The notes: generated from the sequence alone by a model not told the origin. Numbered from the stretch's first letter, positions 5,682 through 25,019 are shown. The stretch: 33,132 nt of DNA from a virus (IMGVR_UViG_3300027861_000114:1-33132); one strand, 5' to 3'. Made by a program: numbers and translations.

Positions 5682-5999
5682 ATGGGTCGATACGTACAAG
5701 TTGACGTTCCCGCATCGGCATGTCCGAAGTGTGGATCCACAAGCCGCACGAAGTATCACAGGACAAGGGAGCTACGCAACGTGAAGATCGGATCTACGTT
5801 CTATCCCAAGGTCGTGTTCCGACGCACCTCCTGCGTGGATTGTGGGCAGAACAGAGTCGAGCGTGTGCTGTATGCAAAAAGTAATTCCGCAGGACGGACT
5901 CAGAAGGTTGATCAACACGACCAAGATCCATTACCATCTCAGCATGTACACACAACAAGACTTGCAGACGAAGATTCTCGCAATCGACGAGAAGATTGA
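5682..5999 (+). CDS. zinc-ribbon protein
   Basis: Two CxxC pairs, Cys14/Cys17 and Cys51/Cys54, spaced by 33 residues rich in basic and beta-prone residues, make a clear zinc-ribbon pattern. Such small proteins often bind nucleic acid. It starts 2 bases after the terminase stop. Residues after about 65 are low-complexity and polar, and the last 56 bases overlap the gpW-like gene, so the tail may be unconstrained. Its role in packaging or head joining is not known. Confidence 0.65.
   Translation: MGRYVQVDVPASACPKCGSTSRTKYHRTRELRNVKIGSTFYPKVVFRRTSCVDCGQNRVERVLYAKSNSAGRTQKVDQHDQDPLPSQHVHTTRLADEDSRNRRED
5882..5899 (+). repeat. 18-base repeat, copy 1
   Basis: TAATTCCGCAGGACGGAC occurs here inside the zinc-ribbon gene and again at 27477-27494 just after the strong terminator. 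The second copy contains the extra GCAGGACGG arm that can compete in the leader RNA. An exact 18-mer twice in 33 kb is not expected by chance, but one event may still be coincidence. Confidence 0.5.
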
Positions 6000-18403: not shown

Positions 18404-18930
18404 TTTCTAATTCAGTAAGTGAGGTTAGCTACCTCCAACACTGATCTTTAACAATTTGGTTTAACGCATCCGGCAGTGATCTGAGTCGTCCGGAGATTCC
18501 CTATCGAGGGGGTTATTAACTTTCTGAACTACGAGAGCGAGTTCGAAACGAAACGCAAAGCCTTTCAGTTTCAAATTCAATCAGAGTCATTCAGCGAACC
18601 CCCCTTCGAGACACAACCAAGTCGCAAGCTGGAACCTAGTCGATGCGGAGCGGGAATCACAAACATCGTATGAGTGTTGCGGGTAAGTCTTTCGAACCCC
18701 GACCTACCGCCGGATGAGGCGGGATCTCAAGGACAGTACTTTCAGTGTTGACCCCTCTGAGCTACGAACGAAGAACACAAGCCGCATAGCCGCTTAGCTG
18801 TTCCGAGAACGAGTCAGAGAATCACGAAGGAACCTGATAGCTACAAAGAGATCGTTCAGATAGAGCCAACGACGCAGTCTAGCCGCAAGCTAGTCGAGCC
18901 GAGACGCAACACACCTGACCTAGTCAGTAA

Positions 18931-18963
18931 CTTTCACAGGACAAGTCCCTGTGTGAGTGAAAG
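18931..18963 (+). other. hairpin immediately upstream of hammerhead A
   Basis: CTTTCA (18931-18936) pairs with TGAAAG (18958-18963), enclosing CAGGAC/GTCC(C)TG with an AA loop and one bulged C. It ends 2 bases before the ribozyme, so it may insulate ribozyme folding or remain as the 3' part of the cleaved leader. Confidence 0.5.
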
Positions 18964-18965
18964 CG

Positions 18966-19017
18966 GTCGGTCGCATGACATTAGTAGTCATGCCTGATGA
19001 GTAACTTCGAAACCGAT
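18966..19017 (+). ncRNA. hammerhead ribozyme A (type III-like, stem III open)
   Basis: Stem III 5' strand GTCGGT (18966-18971) pairs with ACCGAT (19012-19017). The cleavage triplet GUC is 18970-18972, predicted cut after C18972. Stem I is GCATGAC/GTCATGC (18973-18979 with 18987-18993, 7 bp, 7-base loop). The core CTGATGA is 18994-19000 and GAAA is 19009-19012, with the required A-U pair next to the cut. Stem II is unusually short: G19001-C19008 plus little else. All catalytic core positions are intact. The cleaved mRNA would have a 61-nt 5' UTR before the start at 19034. The weak stem II is the main doubt. Confidence 0.78.
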
Positions 19018-19033
19018 AACAGGAACAGAGACA

Positions 19034-19321
19034 ATGACAAAACTTACAGCAGTCGGCGTAGCAAACGCAATCGCATCCGTGCTTCAAGCATCCGGTGATT
19101 CAGACTACGCAGCACAGCAGTTACAGGCAATCAGCAACGCACTGCTCGACGGAGTAGCAGACAAGCAAGAGCAACTCGAAGAATCCTTGATGCACCACTA
19201 CGGTGATGGCACTGAGATGAGGCGGCTAACATTCTGCGAGAACCTTGGCGACCTCCTTGGCGACAGGGCAATCGAACTTGACGACACGTTTTACGCAGAC
19301 GCTCCCGAAGCTGACCTGTAG
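19034..19321 (+). CDS. unknown small acidic early protein
   Basis: 95 aa, mainly helical (VANAIASVLQASGDSDYAAQ) and acidic at the end. AGGA at 19021-19024 serves the ATG. First gene of the early operon, 17 bases after hammerhead A, so its mRNA is probably generated by ribozyme cleavage. No family recognised. Confidence 0.65.
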   Translation: MTKLTAVGVANAIASVLQASGDSDYAAQQLQAISNALLDGVADKQEQLEESLMHHYGDGTEMRRLTFCENLGDLLGDRAIELDDTFYADAPEADL

Positions 19322-19354
19322 GACACGCAGCACACTTTCACTTTCAATACTTAC

Positions 19355-19362
19355 ACCGGAGA
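19355..19362 (+). promoter_or_regulatory. extended ribosome site ACCGGAGA
   Basis: ACCGGAGA precedes the ATG at 19370, with GGAG 8 bases before the start. The same 8-mer precedes the starts at 20695, 23214, 25765 and 26188/26191, usually with TTAC or CTAC just upstream. Confidence 0.6.
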
Positions 19363-19369
19363 CAGAGAC

Positions 19370-19828
19370 ATGACGAAGAACACAAACGTAGAACACGCAA
19401 ACTCATTCGAAGCTACTATCACTTTCAAGAGTCGAGAAGATGCAGCACGTTGGCGACGACGATTCGATGATGCTGTTCAGTTCAGCAGCGGGTGCAAGAT
19501 GCTGTTATGTGTCGAGGGTGATCCTGATGAGTCGGACCGGCTCAAAGAACTCTGCGACATCCTGCATCAGAATGACGAGACAAAGGATCTCACCTACTTT
19601 CAGTACGGAGTCGAGATTGAGTATTACGTTGCAGTCGTCTATTGCGGACACACTTGGGTTCAAGAGTTCGGCGACTACGACAAGAAGGTAGTCAAGCAGG
19701 AGATCAAAGACTTGAAGTACAGCGACAAGCTCTGCGGCATCCGGCAGCCGTACCAACTGCTGACTGTTCGCAACGATCAGCAGGAGGACATCGACAAAGC
19801 GATTGCAGAATTAGCGGACCCCAAGTAG
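19370..19828 (+). CDS. unknown early protein
   Basis: 152 aa, alpha/beta-looking and charged; contains AARWRRRFDDAVQFSSGCKM and YGVEIEYYVAVVYCGHTWVQ. No known motif. Its TAG stop (19826-19828) is followed without gap by hammerhead B, so its mRNA would end in the ribozyme's stem III hairpin after cleavage. Confidence 0.65.
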   Translation: MTKNTNVEHANSFEATITFKSREDAARWRRRFDDAVQFSSGCKMLLCVEGDPDESDRLKELCDILHQNDETKDLTYFQYGVEIEYYVAVVYCGHTWVQEFGDYDKKVVKQEIKDLKYSDKLCGIRQPYQLLTVRNDQQEDIDKAIAELADPK

Positions 19829-19882
19829 GTCGAAACGCCTTCGGGCGTCAGGGCAGGTTGGCTACCTGTCCTCTGATGAGAC
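19829..19882 (+). ncRNA. hammerhead ribozyme B (type II)
   Basis: Order of parts is that of a type II hammerhead, with stem II open: GTC (19829-19831), GAAA (19832-19835), stem III ACGCC/GGCGT (19835-19839 with 19844-19848) closed by a TTCG tetraloop, cleavage C19849, stem I AGGGCAGGT/ACCTGTCCT (19850-19858 with 19864-19872, 9 bp, one G-T), core CTGATGA (19873-19879), GAC (19880-19882) pairing back to GTC. Every invariant core base is present. It fills the gap directly after the previous stop. Cleavage would leave a 67-nt 5' UTR on the mRNA starting at 19917. Confidence 0.9.
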
Positions 19883-19916
19883 AAGCCAGTAACAATTCTT
19901 CCAACAGGAAAACACA

Positions 19917-20657
19917 ATGAAGATCGTATCAAGCATCAAGACTCTCGCAAGCAACATCCGTTTCCTTTGCACTCTTGACATGACGGAGCAGCACAAGTTG
20001 CTCAAGCAGGTTGAGAGAACACAGCTACGACAGGAGGATAACATTGAATCCTTCGGTCACAGGCTTGATGACATGCCAGAGTCGATAGAGCAATCAGTCA
20101 GCAGTGCGATGGACAACTACGAGATCGAAGGTGACATTCGAGACGCTATCGACGCATACGACTTTACCCCATACCTCGAAGAACTCGCAGAGAACATCGA
20201 CATTAGCGACGAGATCAGGGAAGCACTGGGTGACATTGAAGACAACATAGACTTCGACACTCACATTGAAAACTATGTCGAGTACAACATCGACTTCGAT
20301 GCCATCGTTGCAGATCACATGGACATGAGCAGCATCGCAGACATAGTTGATGAACGCATCGAGGGTAACGACTTCGGAGGAACCTTCGAGGAACTCACCG
20401 AGAAGGTACAGAACCTTGAGCTACAGCAAGCATCACTTGTGCAAGGCTTGAGCGTAAGGTTCGGTAAGCTCGCACAGTCATTGATGTTCAGCACCGACTG
20501 GTCGCAGGACGCAGAGGTTCAGGAAGCAGAGATCAACGAGGCATTGTCTGCAGAGGTTCAGGAAGCAGAGATCAACGAGGCATTGTCTAATGCAAACAAC
20601 GATCCAATCCTTGAGATCCTTCAAGCAGTCGAAGCAGAGAAGCAAAGCAAAGAGTAG
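19917..20657 (+). CDS. acidic coiled protein with tandem repeat
   Basis: 246 aa, strongly acidic. The middle (residues about 60-150) is Asp/Glu/Ile rich (IDISDEIREALGDIEDNIDF). Residues 199-224 are two identical 13-residue units, AEVQEAEINEALS, encoded by a perfect 39-base tandem duplication. Acidic, helical phage proteins of this kind can mimic DNA or act as inhibitors, but nothing here proves that. AGGA at 19905-19910 serves the start. Confidence 0.6.
   Translation: MKIVSSIKTLASNIRFLCTLDMTEQHKLLKQVERTQLRQEDNIESFGHRLDDMPESIEQSVSSAMDNYEIEGDIRDAIDAYDFTPYLEELAENIDISDEIREALGDIEDNIDFDTHIENYVEYNIDFDAIVADHMDMSSIADIVDERIEGNDFGGTFEELTEKVQNLELQQASLVQGLSVRFGKLAQSLMFSTDWSQDAEVQEAEINEALSAEVQEAEINEALSNANNDPILEILQAVEAEKQSKE
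20511..20588 (+). repeat. 39-base perfect tandem duplication inside a gene
   Basis: Copy one is 20511-20549 and copy two 20550-20588, identical base for base and a multiple of three, adding 13 residues (AEVQEAEINEALS) to the acidic protein. Perfect identity suggests a recent duplication. Confidence 0.9.
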
Positions 20658-20679
20658 TAGCCATGTTGAACTTACCCAT

Positions 20680-20687
20680 ACCGGAGA
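20680..20687 (+). promoter_or_regulatory. extended ribosome site ACCGGAGA
   Basis: Second copy of the ACCGGAGA element, 7 bases before the ATG at 20695 and preceded by CTTACCCAT. It decides the start of this gene, because the open frame itself runs back to 20590. Confidence 0.6.
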
Positions 20688-20694
20688 CAGAATT

Positions 20695-21144
20695 ATGCAG
20701 ACCGTTACCTATCTATCACATGAAATCACAGACGCGACTACGCAGAACGACAAGATCCCGAAACCCAAGCTAGATCAGTTTGGATACACGCGTAGCTCAG
20801 GTTCACCGACAGAGTATCGCTTGAAGTTCGAGGGGTCGAGTCGTTGGTTTCGCGTGTACTGCTTGCAGTTTTCAAATGCTGCCTCACACTTCATAAGGTA
20901 CAAGAACGACCGCTTGTACTTGAAGGGTTCGCATTGGGATGACATCACCGACTTGGCAGCACAAGAGAAGTCGAAGCGGAGTAGTCATGTCGGACAGATC
21001 GTTGTACTCAACGAACTTCCAGACGCAGTACGCTGGGAGATCCTTGAAGTGAGTGATCACGATGGAATGTTCACCGTGCGAGAAGAAGGTACTGACTACC
21101 GTCCGCAGTTGATTCATTCTTCGCAGATTCACAAGCGAGTATGA
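20695..21144 (+). CDS. unknown early protein
   Basis: 149 aa. The part YTRSSGSPTEYRLKFEGSSR and WFRVYCLQF looks like a small beta domain; the C-terminal third (VVLNELPDAVRWEILEVSDH) also looks beta-rich. No family recognised. Start chosen by the ACCGGAGA element. Two bases after its stop begins hammerhead C. Confidence 0.6.
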   Translation: MQTVTYLSHEITDATTQNDKIPKPKLDQFGYTRSSGSPTEYRLKFEGSSRWFRVYCLQFSNAASHFIRYKNDRLYLKGSHWDDITDLAAQEKSKRSSHVGQIVVLNELPDAVRWEILEVSDHDGMFTVREEGTDYRPQLIHSSQIHKRV

Positions 21145-21146
21145 GA

Positions 21147-21200
21147 GTCGAAACGCCTTCGGGCGTCTGCGGGGTTCCGTCCTACCCGCACTGATGAGAC
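21147..21200 (+). ncRNA. hammerhead ribozyme C (type II)
   Basis: GTC (21147-21149), GAAA (21150-21153), stem III ACGCC/GGCGT (21153-21157 with 21162-21166) with a TTCG loop, cleavage C21167, stem I TGCGGG/CCCGCA (21168-21173 with 21185-21190, 11-base loop), core CTGATGA (21191-21197), GAC (21198-21200). The stem II/III half is identical to ribozyme B over 21 bases, while stem I is different in sequence but still pairs, which is compensatory evidence that the structure is selected. Cleavage leaves a 68-nt 5' UTR before the start at 21236. Confidence 0.9.
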
Positions 21201-21235
21201 AGGACACAACTACTCGATCTTCAAGGATCAATGCT

Positions 21236-22177
21236 ATGACTACTACACTTATAAGCCCAGTTCAGCAGGCTGTTCGCGATCACCTTGCATCAGAGTTTAC
21301 AAGGGAGGTTATCAAGGTTCCATTGTCTGGTCCCGATAACATGCCGAGTCCGCACTACGGCTTGTGCTTTGATGATGCAGAGAGCAGGGAGGATTGGATG
21401 CGATGCACAGTCAAGAAGGGTTACATCCCGCATACCCGCGAGGACGTAGCAGTGCTGTCCGAGACTGTAGCTGCCGGACTCGATCTCGAACTTGATCAGG
21501 TGAAGATCAGTGCATTCTTTAAGCCGCATACTGGTCATCGCGTTGCAGTCCAGCCGACTATCGGATACCGGAAGGCTTTGTCTGCAAGTCCGCTTGATAC
21601 CTTGTGGCCAAAGTTCATTATCAACGCGAACTACGGAGGTTCATTTACTGCACAGTGCGGCATGTACCGCGATGCTTGTTCGAACATGCAGATGATGCGA
21701 AGGGTAGAACACACGACCGTATCCCTGCGGCACGTTGGTAACTTCCGCGACAACTTCGATGACACAGTATCGCAGTGGCAGTCATTGTCTGCGAGGTTCG
21801 ACAGCATCGTTGAAGCGGCTAACCACTTTCGAGAGACAGAGGTTCGTGCTGCCGACTTCTACAACAGCCTGTACCCTGAGCCGAGTGCCGCTGATACCGC
21901 TGCGAAGCACAGGCGTCACAAAGAGAAGCTCAGGTCGATGATGTCACGCTTGCTCAAGGAGCGAAACAAGATCGGCAACACAACAGCAGACGTTGTGAAG
22001 TGTAACCTTTGGGAGCTAGTCAACAGCGTGACAGGATTCGTGCAGCACGACAAACGCAAGACTAGGGACGGCAAGAAACTCGATCCTGTTACGAAGTCGT
22101 TCTTAGGTGTTGCCGACAAAGAGTGTGACAAGGCTTGGGATTACGCATTCGATGCAGTGCCGTTTGCTGCAGCGTAG
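21236..22177 (+). CDS. DUF932-like protein
   Basis: 313 aa. The central block GGSFTAQCGMYRDACSNMQM (residues about 134-153), then TVSLRHVGNFRDNF, matches the pattern of DUF932/phage-plasmid-like proteins (short DGS...f....vCsNgm, then hrH.gn). The family is common on phages and plasmids and has no settled function. The C-terminus (about 205-313) is basic and helical. Start at 21236 (MTTTLIS) after AAGGAT; the open frame reaches back to 21194 but overlaps the ribozyme. It stands alone between ribozymes C and D. Confidence 0.65.
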   Translation: MTTTLISPVQQAVRDHLASEFTREVIKVPLSGPDNMPSPHYGLCFDDAESREDWMRCTVKKGYIPHTREDVAVLSETVAAGLDLELDQVKISAFFKPHTGHRVAVQPTIGYRKALSASPLDTLWPKFIINANYGGSFTAQCGMYRDACSNMQMMRRVEHTTVSLRHVGNFRDNFDDTVSQWQSLSARFDSIVEAANHFRETEVRAADFYNSLYPEPSAADTAAKHRRHKEKLRSMMSRLLKERNKIGNTTADVVKCNLWELVNSVTGFVQHDKRKTRDGKKLDPVTKSFLGVADKECDKAWDYAFDAVPFAAA

Positions 22178-22190
22178 TATCGCCCTGTGA

Positions 22191-22253
22191 ATCGAAACGG
22201 CACGTTGGCTGCGTGTCGTCTGTTGCGAAGTGGTTTCGCAATACTGATGAGAC
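22191..22253 (+). ncRNA. hammerhead ribozyme D (type II, divergent)
   Basis: GAAA (22194-22197), stem III ACGGCACG/CGTGTCGT (22197-22204 with 22212-22219, one G-T, 7-base loop), cleavage C22220, stem I TGTTGCGAA/TTCGCAATA (22221-22229 with 22235-22243, one G-T, 5-base loop), core CTGATGA (22244-22250), GAC (22251-22253). Stem II is weaker than in B and C: ATC at 22191-22193 gives only two pairs with GA. Stems I and III differ in sequence from B and C yet still fold. It starts 13 bases after the DUF932 stop and leaves a 52-nt 5' UTR before 22273. Confidence 0.85.
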
Positions 22254-22272
22254 ATACCTACAGGATAAACAG

Positions 22273-22584
22273 ATGACCAAAGTTACAGAGAAGCCAGAGT
22301 TCAATTCTATCTACGATCGTGTCGACGACGCAGCGATGTCAAGACTGACATTTGCTTTGTCGTGTATTGCAATGGGCGATGACATTACTGACGACGAAAC
22401 GTATTTGAAAAGCGAAATTATGAGACTAACAGATCTTGTTACGCGAATGGAACTTCGAATGTCAACAGCACGTCCATTCAAGTCTGCATCTTCGTTCTAC
22501 AGACGACAGATCGTAGTAGTCCAACAGTTTATTGATGCACACAAAACAGAACTTACAGCAAGGACAAAACACAATGACAACTAG
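22273..22584 (+). CDS. unknown small helical protein
   Basis: 103 aa, almost all helix (EIMRLTDLVTRMELRM, FYRRQIVVVQQFIDAH). Start at 22273 after ACAGGATAAACAG; the open frame to 22135 would overlap the ribozyme. It overlaps the ribbon-helix-helix gene by 11 bases. No family recognised. Confidence 0.6.
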   Translation: MTKVTEKPEFNSIYDRVDDAAMSRLTFALSCIAMGDDITDDETYLKSEIMRLTDLVTRMELRMSTARPFKSASSFYRRQIVVVQQFIDAHKTELTARTKHNDN

Positions 22585-22774
22585 AATTAAGATCACAGTC
22601 ACAGATGCAATGCTCGATGAGCTACGCAGAAGATCGAAGAAACAGGACATGAACGTTAGCAAGTATATACGCAGCGTGTTATCCAAAGACCTTATCGGAC
22701 CCGAACAGAAGCATCTTCACAACGATGTTGTACGAGTCGGGCGACCCCAAGTACACAAACAGGATGAGACATAA
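22574..22774 (+). CDS. ribbon-helix-helix (Arc/CopG-like) DNA-binding protein
   Basis: 66 aa: a beta strand TRIKITVTDAM (residues 3-13), helix LDELRRRSKKQD, then NVSKYIRSVL, the standard ribbon-helix-helix pattern with the short strand binding the major groove as a dimer. It is a likely repressor or activator of early genes, possibly acting on the direct repeats in the 18.4 kb leader, but that link is only inferred. The stop overlaps the next start (ATAATGA). Confidence 0.75.
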   Translation: MTTRIKITVTDAMLDELRRRSKKQDMNVSKYIRSVLSKDLIGPEQKHLHNDVVRVGRPQVHKQDET

Positions 22775-23217
22775 TGACGAAGTACAAGATACGAAAAGCA
22801 ACAGTCAACGATCTACCTTCGCTCATGGAGATAGAACACCTCGCAATCAAGGAGTCATTGCCTGTTGAAACCATCTCGTTAATCATGGACAACTCGAACT
22901 ACACCGTTTCTGTATGCACCGTTGACCTTGATAGCGACGAAGAAATCCTCGGCTACACAATGTGGCAGGACGTGGACAACACGCATGTGATCTCACGCTT
23001 GCTTGTTCATCCTTCGTGCTGGAACCGAGGTATTGGCAAGGCATTAATGACTCATATCATTGATGACTCAGAGAAGTGCGGTAACGAATGTGATTTTGTT
23101 TGCATTCCAGATCAAGCCGTATTGCTGTTCCCGTTTTTCTTACGCAGTCTTGGGTTCAAGTTGAACCGCAAAGCTGGTATCGTTTCCCTGTATTCATTCA
23201 CCGGAGAATCAGAATGA
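22774..23217 (+). CDS. GNAT-family acetyltransferase
   Basis: 147 aa. Residues 76-92 (LLVHPSCWNRGIGKALM) carry the acetyl-CoA-binding motif A, after a beta bulge at ISRLLV. N-terminal KIRKATVNDLPSLMEIEHLA is the usual GNAT start, and the end FFLRSLGFKLNRKAGIV matches motif B (f..k.GF). The substrate cannot be told; phage GNATs can modify host proteins or antibiotics-like compounds. It overlaps the exonuclease start (ATGA). Confidence 0.82.
   Translation: MTKYKIRKATVNDLPSLMEIEHLAIKESLPVETISLIMDNSNYTVSVCTVDLDSDEEILGYTMWQDVDNTHVISRLLVHPSCWNRGIGKALMTHIIDDSEKCGNECDFVCIPDQAVLLFPFFLRSLGFKLNRKAGIVSLYSFTGESE
23201..23207 (+). promoter_or_regulatory. extended ribosome site CACCGGAGA of the exonuclease gene
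   Basis: The element TTCACCGGAGA (copy three of five) lies inside the end of the GNAT gene, with GGAG 8 bases before the ATG at 23214. It sets the exonuclease start; the open frame itself extends back to 23100. Confidence 0.55.
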
Positions 23218-24020
23218 AAAGTTCAATTGAATGTAGCGTTCGTTACGACGAAAGCAACGAAGATTACCACGCAGACAAGCAGTGGATCTCATCTTCGCAA
23301 GTCAAAGCATTTGCAAGCGGACCTAGTGTCTACAAGATGCGGTACGTTGACGAATACAAACAGCCGTACAACAAGTCGTTTGCTCTCGGCTCGTTAGTTC
23401 ACTGCATGGTTCTTGAGCCCGACAAGGTTGAACAGCGATACATCGCTGCTCCGCATCATGATCGACGCACCAAGGAGTACAAAACTTGGGCCAATCATTA
23501 CGCAAATGACTCGCGAACAATCGTCAGTGCAAAGGAGTGGGACACAGCTAACGCTTGTAGCGATGCTGTCTACGACAACCCGTTCGCCTCTGCACTGTTT
23601 ACGACTAACGGAACCGTTGAAGCAAGCTACAGGTTCAAGCATCGCGGTATTCAATGCAAGTTCCGTCCTGACAAGCTAATCGCTGAACGCAAGATCGTTG
23701 TTGACCTGAAAACGATCAGCGAGTGTACGCTGCCGGAGATCCTTCGCTCAGTACGCAAGTACAAGTACGGGCTACAGGCAGCACACTACACAGTCGGAGC
23801 AGAAACAGTATGCGGAGGTACAGAGCGATTCAAGTTCTACTTTGTGTTTGTTGAAACCTCTGCACCGTTTCGATGCTGCTGTCTTGAAGTCTTGCCAGAT
23901 AGCTTGTACGGCAAGATTGAATTGTGGGAGCAGAACCTATGCGAGCTTGATAGCAGGCTGCGACTTGATGACTGGACTGAAACTGAATTCTATACGCAAC
24001 TACAAGAGATCGAGGTTTGA
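23214..24020 (+). CDS. PD-(D/E)XK exonuclease (RecE C-terminal / PDDEXK_12-like)
   Basis: 268 aa. N-terminal QWISSSQVKAFASGP and FALGSLVHCMVLEPDKVEQR is the entry pattern of this nuclease group. Active-site residues are Glu137 (EASYR), Asp153 in FRPDK, and Asp164-Leu-Lys166 in VVDLKTIS, followed by YGLQAAHYTVG. Such enzymes resect one strand of DNA ends so that the partner annealase can load. The partner RecT gene follows after 2 bases. Confidence is high because motif and neighbour agree. Confidence 0.88.
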   Translation: MKSSIECSVRYDESNEDYHADKQWISSSQVKAFASGPSVYKMRYVDEYKQPYNKSFALGSLVHCMVLEPDKVEQRYIAAPHHDRRTKEYKTWANHYANDSRTIVSAKEWDTANACSDAVYDNPFASALFTTNGTVEASYRFKHRGIQCKFRPDKLIAERKIVVDLKTISECTLPEILRSVRKYKYGLQAAHYTVGAETVCGGTERFKFYFVFVETSAPFRCCCLEVLPDSLYGKIELWEQNLCELDSRLRLDDWTETEFYTQLQEIEV

Positions 24021-24022
24021 AT

Positions 24023-24808
24023 ATGACTACGCAACTATCACTACGACAGAACCTGCAGGGCGATGCTTTCAAAGAACGACTCGCGAGTGTGCTTCCGATG
24101 CACATTACTCCTGAAAGAATGGTCGCAGTCACACTGACTGCATTGAGTCGAACCCCCGCACTTTCAGGGTCGGACATTGATCAGGCATCGTTCTTCAAGT
24201 CAATGATGACACTGAGCGAGATCGGCCTTGAGCCGAACGGTACCCATGCTCACCTGATTCCGTTCTTCAATTCGAAGCGGCAGTGTCGAGAGGTTCAGTT
24301 GATCGTGGATTACAAAGGTCTTGTACTGTTAGCTAGCCGAGCAGGTTACACAGTTCAGGCCAGAGTCGTCTACTACAACGACGAGCTTGAGTACGATGGA
24401 TTTGAAGTCACTCGTCACGTTCCTGCTTACCTACTTGGCAAGGACAACGGTGACGTGCTTGCGTTCTATTGCATCGTTACCTCAGAGAAAGATCGACGCA
24501 TTGAGTTTATGTCGAAGGCAGAGGTAGACAAGGTGCGTACAGCAAGTCGCGGAGGGTCATCGGGTCCGTGGCGAGATCACTATGTTGAGATGGGCAAGAA
24601 AACAGTGTTCCGTCGAGCCGCGAAGTACATTCCCTTTGAGCCGCAGACTGCGACCGCGATCCTGAAAGGCGATGATGATGTTCCTGAATCTTTGAGCAAG
24701 CAGCGGTCCAAGACAGTTGACGTTGCGGAGTTCAAAGCTATGTTGGATGTGTCTCATCAGACGGACGAGTCACAGTCGAACGCTTCTCCGGTGACACACG
24801 ACGAGTAG
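24023..24808 (+). CDS. recT: RecT-family single-strand annealing protein
   Basis: 261 aa. The block SFFKSMMTLSEIGLEPNGTH, then AHLIPFFN, REVQLIVDYKGLVLLASRAG and VQARVVYYND matches the RecT family core, which coats single-stranded DNA and anneals it to complementary strands during phage recombination. The end is acidic and flexible (from about 215). GAGG at 24013-24016 serves the ATG; TTG 6 bases upstream is less likely. Last gene before a strong hairpin, closing the early operon. Confidence 0.9.
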   Translation: MTTQLSLRQNLQGDAFKERLASVLPMHITPERMVAVTLTALSRTPALSGSDIDQASFFKSMMTLSEIGLEPNGTHAHLIPFFNSKRQCREVQLIVDYKGLVLLASRAGYTVQARVVYYNDELEYDGFEVTRHVPAYLLGKDNGDVLAFYCIVTSEKDRRIEFMSKAEVDKVRTASRGGSSGPWRDHYVEMGKKTVFRRAAKYIPFEPQTATAILKGDDDVPESLSKQRSKTVDVAEFKAMLDVSHQTDESQSNASPVTHDE

Positions 24809-24830
24809 CTCGAACCGATCCTGTTGCGTT

Positions 24831-24864
24831 CCAGCCCCCTGACAGCTATCAGTTAGGGGGCTGG
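24831..24864 (+). terminator. hairpin terminator after recT
   Basis: CCAGCCCCCT (24831-24840) pairs with AGGGGGCTGG (24855-24864) over 10 bp, with a further TGA/TCA pairing inside the loop. Only ATTCGTTT follows, so the U-tract is weak, but the stem is very GC-rich and lies 22 bases after the recT stop. Confidence 0.65.
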
Positions 24865-25019
24865 ATTCGTTTAGGGGGGTCAGGTAGCTCCCCTGACCTA
24901 TCTCACAGGCCGAGATAGCCTAGTTCGCGTCTGAAATGCTTGGTTATAGCCCCTCAGACTATCCCGAGGCACAGAAGCTACAGGGGTCCGGTAAAACAGG
25001 GGGCAAGATCGAAGAACTA

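Follow-up and report, generated by a model that had tools for sequence, protein, structure and literature searches.

Hammerhead ribozymes clustered around prophage genes were described by Perreault et al. in 2011, who proposed that they process long phage transcripts and showed that tandem sets cleave in vitro, that a triple set cleaves in E. coli and that fast cleavage requires pseudoknots (PMC3088659). In bacteria, self-cleaving ribozymes occur close to phage genes and to each other (PMC10085705). Since 2011, what phage hammerheads do has been addressed by a vague idea of 'processing'. Here we analysed a viral DNA of 33,132 nucleotides (nt) (IMGVR_UViG_3300027861_000114:1-33132; the whole stretch is called the window below), in which a type III hammerhead in the leader and three type II hammerheads in intergenic gaps follow one another along a single operon, and would divide its transcript into a structured leader and four messenger RNAs (mRNAs).

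A structural descriptor covering all three hammerhead permutations found exactly four consensus hammerheads in the window, all on the + strand (Table 1); the type II ribozymes lie in the gaps at 19829-19916 (88 nt), 21145-21235 (91 nt) and 22178-22272 (95 nt). Dinucleotide shuffles yielded 0.03 hammerheads per window, and none were found in 100 shuffles when the consensus G10.1-C11.1 was required. All four ribozymes have GUC cleavage triplets and intact cores, and they lie close together on one strand flanking phage genes, as in clustered phage arrays; the predicted cuts give 5' untranslated regions (UTRs) of 61, 67, 68 and 52 nt. The three type II sites carry the conserved core CUGANGA ... 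GAAA and a UH cleavage site in type II order, with stems I (6–10 base pairs (bp)) and III (5–9 bp) closed by loops and stem II (2–3 bp) open, and with pseudoknots of 5, 5 and 3–4 bp between loop I and the 3' tail. At the first site, which begins immediately 3' of the stop codon at 19826-19828, the loop sequence UGGCU (19859-19863) pairs with AGCCA (19884-19888); at the second, GUCCU (21179-21183) pairs with AGGAC (21201-21205); the third has an outer helix of CCUGU (22184-22188) with ACAGG (22260-22264), which overlaps the ribosome-binding site.

The first-pass annotation of this DNA had proposed the same four ribozymes and looked to the Rfam covariance models as a check. Hammerhead_II (RF02276) reports 22190-22261 at 42 bits against a cut-off of 37, scores 21146-21208 below that cut-off (32.3 bits) and does not report the 19829 ribozyme, and no Rfam model reports the type III ribozyme. 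Because the Rfam type II model passes its threshold only at the last site, a covariance model (R1) was trained on 24 type II ribozymes from other phages only, with the window and its relatives excluded. R1 recovered the sites at 19829 (47.7 bits, E=6 × 10−11), 21147 (58.8 bits, E=5 × 10−14) and 22192 (34.2 bits, E=3.5 × 10−7), and no further match in the window at E≤1. The leader ribozyme has the type III core and stem order, with 7 bp in stem I, 6 bp in stem III and 1 bp in stem II, and its loop I sequence AGU (18983-18985) is able to pair with ACU (19004-19006) in loop II. Hammerhead_3 (RF00008) gave no match in the window between 18000 and 25500 at E 10, nor in either of two related contigs, L004 and L005, at E 0.01, and for this reason the ribozyme is named type III by its core and topology and not as a member of RF00008. 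The missing match is probably due to the shortness of stem II; a hammerhead with a stem II of 1 bp is active (PMC3088659).

Conservation in these relatives, the only two found, provides a further line of evidence. L004 has DUF932 and RecT proteins 94% identical to those of the window, L005 is more distant (DUF932 77%, RecT about 66%), and in each of them the four ribozymes are retained at the junctions where the window has them, with compensatory changes in stems and pseudoknots. In the L005 leader ribozyme, stem II has 2 bp, an A-U pair of stem I is replaced by G-C and the loop pairing AGU/ACU by GGU/ACC; in the 21147 ribozyme, stem I is wholly replaced in a compensatory manner (UGCGGG/CCCGCA to CACAAG/CUUGUG) and the pseudoknot changes from GUCC/GGAC to GCCC/GGGC, covariation being seen in L004 and L005; and the outer helix of the 22192 ribozyme reads CCUAUGU/ACAUAGG in L005. 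Taken together, the descriptor, R1 and this conservation bear out the hammerheads first proposed for the leader and three gaps, together with their gap coordinates, predicted cut positions and 5' UTR lengths, and support the proposed partition of the transcript into the leader, two blocks of two genes, the DUF932 gene alone and a last block. Outside these relatives, the terminase and RecT of the window have distant phage matches only, and a RecT alignment search of bacterial genomes found nothing. In two related genomes, G001 (33,989 bases) and G002 (34,184 bases), the offset of the terminase gene from the ribozyme array differs from that in the window, which suggests circularly permuted, near-complete genomes.

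Viral contigs were also scanned with exact patterns for each permutation and contigs were extended; these are samples and no census, their counts are lower bounds, the gene caller was a simple one and the statistics ignore the kinship of lineages. At least 386 consensus ribozymes were found in at least 247 distinct arrays or singletons, including up to 8–11 ribozymes on one strand, mostly one per gene, in L131, L132, L133, L135, L136 and L137. Serial hammerhead arrays are thus common in phages and the set in the window is not unusual; the first-pass annotation erred in regarding a serial set that processes one operon as undescribed, since the 2011 study describes such sets, puts forward the processing now proposed again, and includes experiments on tandem and triple sets (PMC3088659). 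Among the matches listed, arrays of at least three have 120 ribozymes on the array and coding strand, whose complement carries none within their span; 85 of 176 distinct type II ribozymes start −1 to +4 nt from an upstream stop codon; type II cuts cluster 50–70 nt 5' of the next start codon; and a Watson-Crick run of at least 4 between loop I and the 3' tail is present in 110 of the 176 (27 with shuffled tails). Across 24 aligned type II ribozymes all four helices covary, including the pseudoknot, with 106 two-sided cells versus 30 after shuffling. Separately, a contig binned as Lokiarchaeota (L460) carries four consecutive type II hammerheads.

The order of types within mixed arrays follows a rule that the first-pass annotation missed, as it did the type III nature of the first ribozyme and the conserved structured RNA of about 500 nt that this ribozyme would sever. 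Among the matches listed, type III comes first in nine of nine mixed viral arrays, window included, and also in two mixed arrays of bacterial genome contigs (L417, III-II-II-II-II; L392, III-II-I), and so heads all 11 (random-order probability 1.6 × 10−6). A contig end lies close 5' of the type III in L334, L392, L417 and L316; for the seven arrays with at least 5 kb of hammerhead-free sequence upstream (the window, L132, L139 and L380-L383), the chance of this order is 1/3456 (2.9 × 10−4). Head type III ribozymes lie a median of 270 nt from the previous open reading frame (ORF) of at least 75 codons, with 0 of 11 within 30 nt, and for 70% of the non-head type II among the matches listed such an ORF is no more than 30 nt away.

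A strict III-II-I order was considered and rejected: it was seen once (L392), but types II and I alternate in L479. Two apparent type III ribozymes inside the array of about 11 in L133 are in fact variants of type II in which CUGAUGA is followed by an additional U (CUGAUGAU); on the array strand they are located near 5708 and 13373.

We put at roughly 60% the probability that the hammerheads of the window cut co-transcriptionally and divide the operon into separate mRNAs with hairpin-protected ends. The transcript would begin upstream of about 18440 and end at the terminator-like hairpin 3' of RecT; the four hammerheads would fold during its synthesis, the type III would sever the structured leader from the mRNA, and the three type II would cut between genes to give four shorter mRNAs, with the permutation setting which cleavage product retains a hairpin. 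By the known chemistry of hammerheads, cleavage of a type II ribozyme gives the upstream RNA a 3'-terminal stem III hairpin and the downstream RNA a stem I hairpin next to its 5'-OH. With type III, the two closed stems (I and II) both stay with the downstream product; with type I, both closed stems go to the upstream one. Type III would suit the leader because its cut leaves stems on the downstream mRNA only, and with defined, hairpin-capped ends each mRNA could therefore decay and be translated independently. A type III in the leader with type II ribozymes at the junctions is what would be expected if the ribozymes protect the surviving mRNA ends, and this fits both the phage and the survey. 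The sequences establish the motifs with their conservation, covariation, position and order; cleavage in cells, an effect on mRNA stability and a reason for the order of types we infer. More tentatively, and with doubt outweighing confidence, the same logic may amount to a topology code in phage operons, in which a type III at the head frees a long, structured and possibly boxA-bearing functional leader, type II (or I) at later junctions caps mRNA ends by hairpins, and the permutation is selected by the product that must survive.

Several observations weigh against cutting into mRNAs with hairpin-protected ends. Arrays made up of type I alone are common in other phages, and because their cuts provide the downstream mRNA with no 5' hairpin, double capping is not universal; type III also occurs as all-III arrays and as singles at junctions; a bacterial-genome contig, L479, alternates types (II-II-I-II-I-II-I); the core of the fourth L005 ribozyme is changed from CUGAUGA to UUGAUGA, and this copy may be weak and cut poorly; and the abutment of ribozymes on stop codons may be a mere product of compact genomes.

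The leader itself is the source of the strongest alternative, in which the first ribozyme mainly frees a structured RNA of about 500 nt, noncoding or acting in antitermination, the mRNA side being incidental. Alignment-based folding of leader plus ribozyme in the three sequences predicts 151 pairs with 96% of cells paired, and 24 of the pairs are changed on both sides, compared with a mean of 8.5 in shuffled and 0–3 in slid versions, controls that flatter the structure because it was predicted from the same alignment. The leader ends right at the ribozyme, a boxA-like motif stands at its 5' edge, with one mismatch to TGYTCTTTRAMAA (such a match occurs in 1% of shuffles) and a core, TGATCTTT, that is kept in L004 and L005, and head type III ribozymes of other lineages are also preceded by long noncoding stretches. 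Against this, the leader is carried by the window, L004 and L005 only among the sequences searched, its minimum free energy (MFE) is unexceptional in the window (z −1.4), boxA was not found ahead of most type III ribozymes elsewhere, and a promoter scan of the region found none. We therefore regard a released leader as the main purpose of the ribozyme as unlikely, though less so than the alternatives that follow; the leader, which has no Rfam match, is a candidate new phage RNA, and a function in antitermination or otherwise is a lead and no proof.

An unrelated phage contig, L156, has at 887-1345 a perfect boxA (TGCTCTTTGACAA), a strongly folding leader of about 400 nt (z −4.2) and a type III hammerhead whose sequence resembles that of the window; it has no terminase homologue. 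Homology of its leader to that of the window is not claimed, as only a 26-nt block and the ribozyme align. BoxA as a general mark of type III leaders was rejected, being found in the window lineage and L156 only, and a generally stronger structure of type III leaders is unsupported (MFE versus controls, P=0.17).

Alternatively, the ribozymes could be regulated, with upstream translation, a ligand or a protein gating cleavage. Gating by upstream translation is conceivable because stop codons abut the ribozymes: a terminating ribosome on the abutting stop would sit on the GUCGAAAC strand and hold up folding, so that cutting would report translation of the upstream gene. About half of the 176 type II ribozymes among the matches listed have a stop codon that overlaps or abuts the 5' strand, and the three related sequences keep this abutment at most sites; compact genomes predict it too, however, the junction ribozymes show no conserved ligand domain, and cleavage that is fast relative to translation would outrun most gating. 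Regulation of this kind thus seems rather improbable. Unmasking of the Shine-Dalgarno sequence by cleavage was rejected: no general difference appears between the folds predicted before and after cleavage, and the fourth site alone has a covarying helix at the ribosome-binding site.

We know of no phage hammerhead with a demonstrated biological role, and the motifs might be passengers, intergenic hairpin filler whose cleavage, if any, is of no consequence, as the core change in the one L005 copy could suggest. This appears improbable: tandem sets are active both in vitro and within E. coli (PMC3088659), and in many phages core and pseudoknots are kept though stems are wholly replaced, which indicates selection for the ribozyme fold. 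That pairs of ribozymes mark off RNAs for circularization by ligation, in the manner of retrozymes and viroid-like RNAs, is very improbable: neighbouring self-cleaving ribozymes have compatible ends, and hammerhead-bearing circular RNAs are known from other systems (PMC4918200, PMC7229834), but the intervening RNAs here are protein-coding mRNAs with their own start sites, and Perreault et al. sought spliced and circular products and found none (PMC3088659).

Table 1. Coordinates of the leader, ribozymes and predicted operon segments in the window
Feature	Position	Strand	Remarks
boxA-like motif TGATCTTTAACAA (tentative)	18442..18454	+	5' edge of conserved leader
Structured noncoding leader RNA, about 500 nt	18465..18965	+	Conserved in three sequences; ends at type III ribozyme
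Type III hammerhead	18966..19017	+	Cut predicted after 18972; stem II about 1 bp
Segment 1	19034..19828	+	Genes 19034-19321 and 19370-19828; no known family
Type II hammerhead with pseudoknot tail	19829..19888 (ribozyme 19829-19882)	+	Cut predicted after 19849
Segment 2	19917..21144	+	Genes 19917-20657 and 20695-21144 (latter weakly matches phrog_3436)
Type II hammerhead with pseudoknot tail	21147..21205 (ribozyme 21147-21200)	+	Cut predicted after 21167
Segment 3	21236..22177	+	Lone DUF932 gene; Pfam PF06067, E=3 × 10−13
Type II hammerhead	22192..22264 (ribozyme 22192-22252)	+	Cut predicted after 22220
Segment 4	22273..24808	+	Unknown gene, RHH/CopG-like, GNAT, PD-(D/E)XK exonuclease, RecT
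Terminator-like hairpin, 14 pairs	24830..24865	+	3' of RecT; consensus scan

The operon may be an early one, judging by its RecT and exonuclease genes. The hairpin 3' of RecT has the longest stem and stands at the operon end, of which it is the probable marker; terminator hits in the region are no more numerous than in shuffles, and matches in the sigma-70 promoter scan are no commoner than expected by chance. Within the recombination block, an RHH/CopG-like gene is followed by a GNAT acetyltransferase gene (22574-23217), an arrangement as in GNAT-RHH toxin-antitoxin pairs. The gene at 19917-20657 contains a perfect 39-bp tandem duplication (20511-20588), by which 13 residues, AEVQEAEINEALS, are repeated.

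Stop-codon adjacency, the tightly confined spacing between cut and start codon, the type III-first order in mixed arrays and the full strand bias turn the processing idea into testable rules on which RNA end each ribozyme protects. These regularities would also supply natural parts for operons with separately expressed genes. A leader that proved to be released in stable form would represent a new noncoding RNA of phages. In synthetic systems, ribozyme-assisted polycistronic expression, listed as reference 57 in PMC12819055, and RiboJ-type insulators place ribozymes between or before genes to obtain separate mRNAs with defined 5' ends; the array of the window, by contrast, is natural and not engineered, and its permutation varies with position.

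With Rfam Hammerhead_II, the type II ribozymes of the window share the core, stems, GUC site and pseudoknot tail, although one of the three passes the cut-off and the others were found by the phage-built model. The leader ribozyme shares with Hammerhead_3 the succession of stem III 5' strand, stem I hairpin, CUGAUGA, stem II, GAAA and stem III 3' strand, and differs in a stem II cut to 1–2 bp and in a loop-loop pairing of 3–4 bp. The type III-first order, the structured leader and the positional rules look new, as they were not met in the literature searched, which was thin on subscription journals; the serial arrangement itself is of a kind already described. The prophage clusters of Agrobacterium tumefaciens (a triple set), Azorhizobium caulinodans and Clostridium scindens (PMC3088659) likewise have hammerheads that flank single genes or short blocks, type II ribozymes with pseudoknots between loop I and tail, and the same proposed processing. 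Compared with these clusters, the array described here, known from its sequence, combines four hammerheads in one operon, a mixed topology with type III first, occupation of all gaps of 88–95 nt and a conserved structured leader.

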